A stretch of DNA of 64,000 nt from Bacillota bacterium (lineage in GTDB: Bacteria > Bacillota_I > Bacilli_A > RF39 > UBA660), in the NCBI GenBank assembly GCA_015059285.1, contig SVAS01000002.1, forward strand, positions 128,572 through 192,571, in the 5' to 3' direction. The translations under genes and the position numbers were made by a program. The notes under the pieces are model-generated. The model saw only the letters and a program-made list of their open reading frames with translations. It did not search any database and was not told the origin of the DNA. The stretch's first letter is position 1. Each line of letters begins with the position of its first letter. Of this stretch, positions 37,331 to 37,576 are shown one piece after another.

Positions 37331-37576
37331 ATGGAAGCAATTTTATCAGCAACAATGGAAGCAATCGGAACAATGATTGGATTTACTTTTTTAGGGTTAG
37401 GTATTGGTATTGGTATACTTGGTGCTAAAGTAGCCGAAGCCGTAGGACGTAATCCAGAAACTAAAAGTGATGTAGTTCATTCTGTTATGACAATATTAAT
37501 AGTAGCAACCGTTTTTCTATTATTCTTGTTCGCCTTTACTTTTATGCTTTTATTCTTTAACCCATTAGTAGGCTAA
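37331..37576 (+). CDS. F-type ATPase c-subunit homologue lacking the ion-binding carboxylate
   Basis: 81 residues forming the usual two-helix hairpin: Gly-rich first helix [18 protein letters not shown], polar loop GRNPET, then a second helix. The first helix and loop match bacterial AtpE closely. In AtpE a Glu or Asp in helix 2 carries the proton or sodium, 17 residues after the Glu of the RxPE loop; here that position is Thr60 ([12 protein letters not shown]) and no acidic residue lies in helix 2. A ring may still form, but it should not move ions in the normal way. It lies directly before the b-delta, alpha, gamma, beta and epsilon homologues, exactly as atpE does. Confidence 0.85.

Follow-up and report, generated by a model that had tools for sequence, protein, structure and literature searches.

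Known c-rings exist to carry ions. One of the two hairpins of subunit c1 of Acetobacterium woodii lacks the carboxylate, and there the acid-less hairpin is the minority and the ring still carries Na+. Fusion of subunits b and delta has a precedent in mycobacteria, where the b-delta protein belongs to a normal proton-coupled F1Fo complex. The N-ATPase is an additional, horizontally spread F-type operon found beside the normal one (PMC4154653); its c subunit carries Na+. The F1-like X0 ATPases of mycoplasmas are not known to move ions. For both types, Type 2 (G1-ATPase, which drives gliding in M. mobile) and Type 3 (MIB-MIP), a transfer of force to surface proteins has been proposed (PMC11864180, PMC12994834). 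These complexes have no c, b or delta, and instead contain a 12-TM protein, a 2-TM protein and a small cytosolic protein (PMC3369863).

The locus described here lies in a stretch of 64,000 nucleotides, referred to below as the window, from the genome of an RF39-type gut bacterium. The locus consists of eleven genes on the forward strand in the order giant1, p464, c, b-delta, alpha, gamma, beta, epsilon, TM183, p236 and giant2, with overlaps at gamma/beta, beta/epsilon, epsilon/TM183 and TM183/p236. Using profiles of the RF39-type operon, the same 11-gene set was recovered in nearly all sufficiently long loci, and it occurs in RF39-type Bacilli as well as in Kineothrix, Peptococcaceae, Coriobacteriales and Bifidobacterium. 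In Kineothrix the operon is flanked on both sides by unrelated metabolic genes, which sets its boundaries at giant1 and giant2. Part of the RF39 family has a variant order, with p236 before c and gamma after TM183. In the remaining loci the series c, b-delta, alpha, gamma, beta, epsilon follows that of a canonical atp operon minus the leading a, which suggests descent from such an operon. Directly upstream of giant1, the window encodes a single-domain AAA+ protein (29515-30507; ClpB-like by eye, with a weak TRIP13 match in PADLOC), preceded by a thioredoxin-like lipoprotein (29080-29511). A function in anti-phage defence was considered and dropped, because PADLOC matched none of the four ATPase and membrane proteins tested.

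The protein that sets this operon apart is its subunit c (37331-37576, 81 aa), which scores above the curated cut-off of Pfam family ATP-synt_C, PF00137 (33.4 bits against 24, E = 5.4e-8). It has a GxGxGxG helix 1, an invariant RNP loop and an invariant NP at the outer end of helix 2, which is without a carboxylate. The register of the alignment is firm: 18 residues lead from Pro42 of the loop to residue 60, just as they lead from Pro43 to Asp61 in E. coli, and the gap-free GxGxGxG and RNP motifs anchor both helices. At residue 60 there is a Thr, and neither Asp nor Glu occurs anywhere in helix 2, as an earlier note made from the sequence alone had pointed out. A shifted register or a compensating acid in helix 1 can be excluded, since the motifs align without gaps and no acid was found at the equivalent of E. 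coli A24; no shift of the alignment could place an acid in the membrane.

In 49 acid-less loci, collected by a scan of named bacterial genomes, site 60 is occupied by Ala (21), Ser (15), Thr (9), Met (3) or Val (1) and in none by an acidic residue, compared with Glu in all 16 canonical c sequences that could be read from the host genomes (a seventeenth ORF was misframed). The conserved trait is the lack of an acid, and Thr60 itself varies. The missing carboxylate thus proved constant among orthologues, and the option that Thr60 is an isolated change, which the earlier note had named as a way to refute its claim, was itself refuted. In a single locus (L076:7817-8059) the residue preceding the ion site is Asp (MIVDTVF); no other Asp, Glu, Lys or Arg occurs within helix 2 among the 49 loci. 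His50 is replaced by Gln or Ser in many Clostridia.

No protein of the operon is as conserved as subunit c, which has a mean pairwise identity of 0.69 versus 0.63 for beta, while for the canonical proteins of the host genomes the values are 0.46 for c and 0.69 for beta. The higher identity of c than of beta indicates that the acid-less c is not decaying. Within its helix 2, few positions vary as much as site 60 (2.46 bits) and residue 59 before it (1.83 bits); the Glu of canonical c is invariant. Residues 64-78, toward the extracellular side, are mostly near-fixed in the 49 loci, and Phe67, Leu73, Asn77 and Pro78 are identical in all of them. Constraint has left the ion site in mid-membrane and now rests on the extracellular end of helix 2. 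The conservation shows no significant periodicity along a helical face of helix 2 (p ~0.7). The Arg40-Asn41-Pro42 loop, which presumably contacts gamma and epsilon as in known structures, is invariant, as are the ring-packing glycines. Taken together, the fixed loop, the glycines and the outer half of helix 2 can be read as a rotor that is still gripped by gamma and now engages something at its outer end.

The source genome is small (1.04 Mb, 95.6% complete), and in whole-genome searches it yielded a single PF00137 match, the c-like protein itself, and two PF00006 matches, the alpha and beta of the operon. Since both searches recovered their targets in 14 of 14 control genomes, the source genome has no ordinary F- or V-type ATPase visible to these models, and the acid-less complex is its sole F/V-type ATPase as far as searches with PF00137 and PF00006 can see. 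Subunit a (PF00119) was found neither here nor in the four other RF39-type genomes searched. The single PF00137 match excludes a mixed ring with a second c subunit. With the acid missing from the orthologues too and no register that brings one in, the earlier claim of a rotor unable to carry protons or sodium is well supported. In the PDB, the acid-less c profile matches A. woodii c1 best (4bem, E = 3.4e-13); unlike there, the acid-less protein is here the only c of the genome.

Among 193 genomes of the same family, PF00137 found 13 matches, namely, 12 acid-less proteins and one normal Glu-bearing c. A profile search across the order (385 genomes) found 27 strong matches (E ~1e-37 or better). 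One same-family genome (G067:C15, locus L014) has an ordinary F1Fo operon with a Glu-bearing c, and there the frame of subunit a is broken by a TAG in the assembly. In another family of the same class, the acid-less c has a more distant relative (G451:C4:117986-118225, E = 3.6e-19). The 49 loci come from MAGs of RF39-type and other Bacilli, from Lachnospiraceae with the isolate Kineothrix alysoides among them, and from Peptococcaceae, Family XIII, Oscillospiraceae, Coriobacteriales and Bifidobacterium colobi, and thus span Bacilli, Clostridia and Actinobacteria and at least two phyla. Hosts outside the RF39 group also encode a separate canonical c and, in nearly all cases, a recognisable subunit a; the acid-less complex is therefore no replacement for the synthase in these organisms.

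Judged by sequence, the F1 head adjoining the acid-less c is catalytically intact, in agreement with the earlier note. Alpha (38345-39670; PF00006, E = 8e-72) has a conserved Walker A motif and Arg finger: in about 50 sequences the Walker A Lys and the Arg finger are retained, and the Walker A Thr is replaced by Ser in two. The catalytic residues of beta (40443-41795; PF00006, E = 2.5e-67) are invariant in 50 sequences; wherever the residue is present, the Walker A Lys and Thr, the catalytic Glu and Arg and the Walker B Asp are all conserved. Gamma (39671-40456) is recognised by PF00231 with E = 2.4e-20. In some members (L015:4888-9138 on the reverse strand, L070:11011-13497 and L076:8817-11486) alpha carries a long C-terminal extension and reaches 829 to 1416 aa, compared with the usual ~440.

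The protein encoded after c (37578-38330) resembles subunit b at first sight. Its AlphaFold2 model (pLDDT 90.6) has a TM/stalk helix of 72 residues, followed by a six-helix bundle and the alpha/beta domain of delta/OSCP. In a Foldseek search with this model delta was the top hit (E = 0.0045, probability 0.99), ranks 1-35 were all delta, OSCP or b-delta, the mycobacterial fusion being among the structural matches, and hhalign linked its profile to canonical delta with E = 1.1e-5. These results identify the protein as a b-delta fusion forming the peripheral stalk. The gene after beta (41788-42039) encodes a short epsilon-like subunit of 83 aa, assigned by its location and comprising the beta-sandwich part only. 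Its best PDB matches are epsilon subunits of ATP synthases, with a weak score (E = 0.075) and over the N-terminal part alone; it is conserved in 51 loci and appears to be devoid of the C-terminal helices.

TM183 (42039-42590) is a membrane protein of 4-5 TM helices. Its AlphaFold2 model (pLDDT 89) opens with a TM helix and a short helix, continues with two helices and ends with two long ones, the order seen in subunit a, and the first-ranked Foldseek match is subunit a of Bacillus PS3 (9jc2_B, an entry confirmed to contain this subunit), albeit with E = 1.2 and a probability of 0.51. VIA-align superimposed TM183 on subunit a with Z = 10.2 over 140 residues; unrelated helix bundles gave similar Z over ~112 residues. 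Likeness in sequence was detected neither by hhalign nor by Pfam, and an assignment to subunit a by sequence was dropped for want of an hhalign match, so that the relationship is retained as a suggestion at the level of fold. On the predicted model, TM183 is probably a divergent subunit a. In its putative helix 5 (residues 105-127) no alignment column is more than 30% basic, which means that the essential Arg is not retained there. A Lys, Arg or Asn is common at position 66.

The remaining four proteins of the operon are surface proteins, all with an N-terminal membrane anchor. Giant1 (30687-35912, 1741 aa) has one N-terminal TM helix, a juxtamembrane beta-domain and fn3-like repeats (E = 1.3e-4), and its orthologues are present in most complete loci. 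In p464 (35927-37321) the anchor and juxtamembrane domain are followed by a Gly-rich linker and an fn3 domain, the profile of which matches fibronectin fn3 in the PDB with E = 5e-7, and p236 (42565-43275) consists of the anchor and a juxtamembrane beta-domain and nothing else. Giant2 (43289-52015, 2908 aa) has an ectodomain with GLUG motifs and TM helices at both ends, and is thus anchored C-terminally as well. Homologues at the same place in the operon have 3170 (Peptococcaceae), 3663 (Kineothrix) and 3318 aa (Bifidobacterium) and are hydrophobic at both ends; Pfam recognised no domain in the complete giant2 of Kineothrix and Bifidobacterium. The juxtamembrane domains of all four proteins are related, with E = 1e-12 for giant1-p464, 1e-7 for giant1-p236 and ~3e-5 to 8e-5 for the remaining pairs, compared with 0.07 or worse for unrelated controls; the likeness to giant2 is modest (E ~5e-5). 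Runs of exported proteins of ~210-270 aa adjoin RF39-type operons in three loci (L023:927-2198, L024:8024-11142 and L021:19587-20003). They share a near-identical signal region, GIFYGVIGVATLVVAIIGATFAYF, neither of the two tested matched Pfam, and they are possibly surface fibre subunits. Small coiled-coil proteins lie beside another acid-less operon (L015:10757-11836), and one of them weakly matches WXG100.

In a phylogenetic tree of beta subunits, the 49 acid-less sequences group together with support 100, and the canonical betas of their host genomes fall outside this clade, which rules out a recent duplication of the synthase already present in the host. The Bifidobacterium sequence is placed among Lachnospiraceae and Coriobacteriales, beside Family XIII, indicating horizontal spread. 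When 11 mycoplasma Type 3 betas were added, three groups were obtained in a tree without an outgroup, each a clade at 98-100, and the acid-less and Type 3 clades were separated at 100/100. Family models gave a similar picture: acid-less beta scores 402 bits on MSC_0618_beta (cut-off 570) and 375 on MMOB1670 (cut-off 850), and the c, alpha and beta proteins stay far below the cut-offs of the N-ATPase models (13.9 bits versus 130.85 for c). Neither NCBIfam nor Pfam offers a model for any of b-delta, epsilon, TM183 and p236; giant1 and p464 have none in NCBIfam. An earlier description was found neither in curated families nor in the literature searched, which mostly left out subscription papers and contained no preprints.

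The system can thus be compared with its relatives point by point. Like F1Fo, it has homologous alpha, beta, gamma, epsilon-like, b-delta and c subunits, with the catalytic residues of alpha3beta3 and the b2-delta stalk. It differs from F1Fo in that the Glu/Asp of c and the Arg of subunit a were not found, in place of a recognisable subunit a there is only a protein with a predicted a-like fold, b and delta are fused, epsilon is short, four surface proteins are added and beta forms a clade of its own. With the N-ATPase it shares horizontal spread of an F-type operon extra to the normal one, but not a Na+-carrying c. The nearest analogue is the mycoplasma group of F1-like X0 ATPases, which likewise have an F1-type head not known to move ions, encoded together with large surface proteins; in the acid-less family this link is seen as a constant gene neighbourhood. 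In contrast to them, however, the acid-less system has c and b-delta, its TM183 has 4-5 TM helices, and its beta clade is separate, Type 3 being the type tested. Lacking the ion site that defines F1Fo as well as the membrane part that defines X0, the system belongs in neither class, although it may work like the F1-like X0 ATPases.

From these sequences we infer strongly that the acid-less complex would couple to neither H+ nor Na+. Our favoured interpretation, which we regard as somewhat probable, is a rotary ATPase derived from F1Fo that has lost the ion path and exerts ATP-driven torque on surface proteins, that is, a surface machine rather than a pump or synthase. In this scenario, ATP hydrolysis in alpha3beta3 would turn gamma, epsilon and the c-ring while b-delta holds the head, and TM183, the probable divergent subunit a, would guide the ring without forming an ion channel. 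As no ion is carried, we propose that the torque is passed to the outer side. There, the invariant FNP at the outer end of c helix 2 could form a collar with the TM anchors of giant1, p464, p236 and giant2, and turning of the ring relative to this collar would move, twist or re-arm surface proteins of 1700-3700 residues, serving surface adhesion, capture or processing. More weakly, we infer that ATP-driven rotation of the ring against the stalk, TM183 and the anchor collar would act as a force on the giant ectodomains. Mycoplasma gliding and MIB-MIP set a precedent for F1 torque at the service of surface proteins (PMC11864180, PMC12994834). The earlier note had held that torque is used mechanically, a plausible reading that fits the intact head, the stalk, the gamma-contact loop, the extremely conserved outer part of helix 2 and the constant presence of the giants. 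The b-delta stalk, the a-like protein, the four paralogous surface proteins and the wide distribution go beyond that note. Bifidobacteria are generally held to be non-motile, so that gliding is unlikely as the common function, and capture, adhesion or surface processing fit better. The chances seem about even that we are dealing with an undescribed class of ATP-powered rotary surface motors, horizontally spread in gut Bacilli, Clostridia and Actinobacteria, in which the c-ring turns or winds the giants and the doubly anchored giant2 could be twisted or cranked.

Several other interpretations have to be weighed against a surface machine. The F1-like head and c-ring might power the giants' export, their folding or their insertion into the membrane, in the manner of FliI/SctN in type III secretion. 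Alpha and beta are indeed distant kin of FliI/SctN and the genes of the giants always accompany those of the ATPase; however, alpha scores 419 bits on the F1 model versus 183 on FliI, and beta 462 versus 221, the gamma, c and b-delta stalk would be superfluous for a secretion ATPase, the giants have ordinary N-terminal anchors and the operon encodes no translocation channel. A secretion or assembly engine is accordingly unlikely in our view. Should the ring instead serve as a mere membrane anchor, with the head spinning freely to control the ATP level or to signal to the surface proteins, no ion load would be required and the shortness of the epsilon-like protein, with its apparent lack of C-terminal helices, would fit. 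Against this, the extreme conservation of the outer helix 2 and the retention of the stalk point to a load-bearing rotor, and we consider a regulatory ATPase of this kind decidedly improbable.

Ions could also cross by way of other residues, such as polar residues of TM183, Thr/Ser60 or His50. About half of the loci have Thr or Ser at site 60, one has Asp59, and a Lys, Arg or Asn is common at position 66 of TM183. Yet site 60 can equally be Ala, Met or Val, His50 is not maintained in many Clostridia, and putative helix 5 of TM183 offers no predominantly basic column (none exceeds 30%), which makes a cryptic pump very unlikely. The variability of site 60 and the absence of another F1Fo in the source genome might also be taken as signs of a decaying or misassembled F1Fo remnant, but 49 loci from at least two phyla that form one clade with intact reading frames, and in which c is more conserved than beta, render decay extremely improbable.

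As no dedicated Pfam or NCBIfam model exists, these genes are likely to be annotated as ordinary ATP synthase subunits. Such annotation would mislead reconstructions of energy metabolism, most of all in RF39-type genomes without a real F1Fo. Because two named species, Kineothrix alysoides and Bifidobacterium colobi, are among the hosts of this family, the route by which F1 torque would cross the membrane to the outside is open to experiment. If the surface machine is real, the complete architecture of a rotary ATP synthase can be converted into a mechanical device acting across the membrane, and the family would represent a second, independent case beside the gliding and antibody-processing motors of mycoplasmas, one with a recognisable c-ring as transmission.
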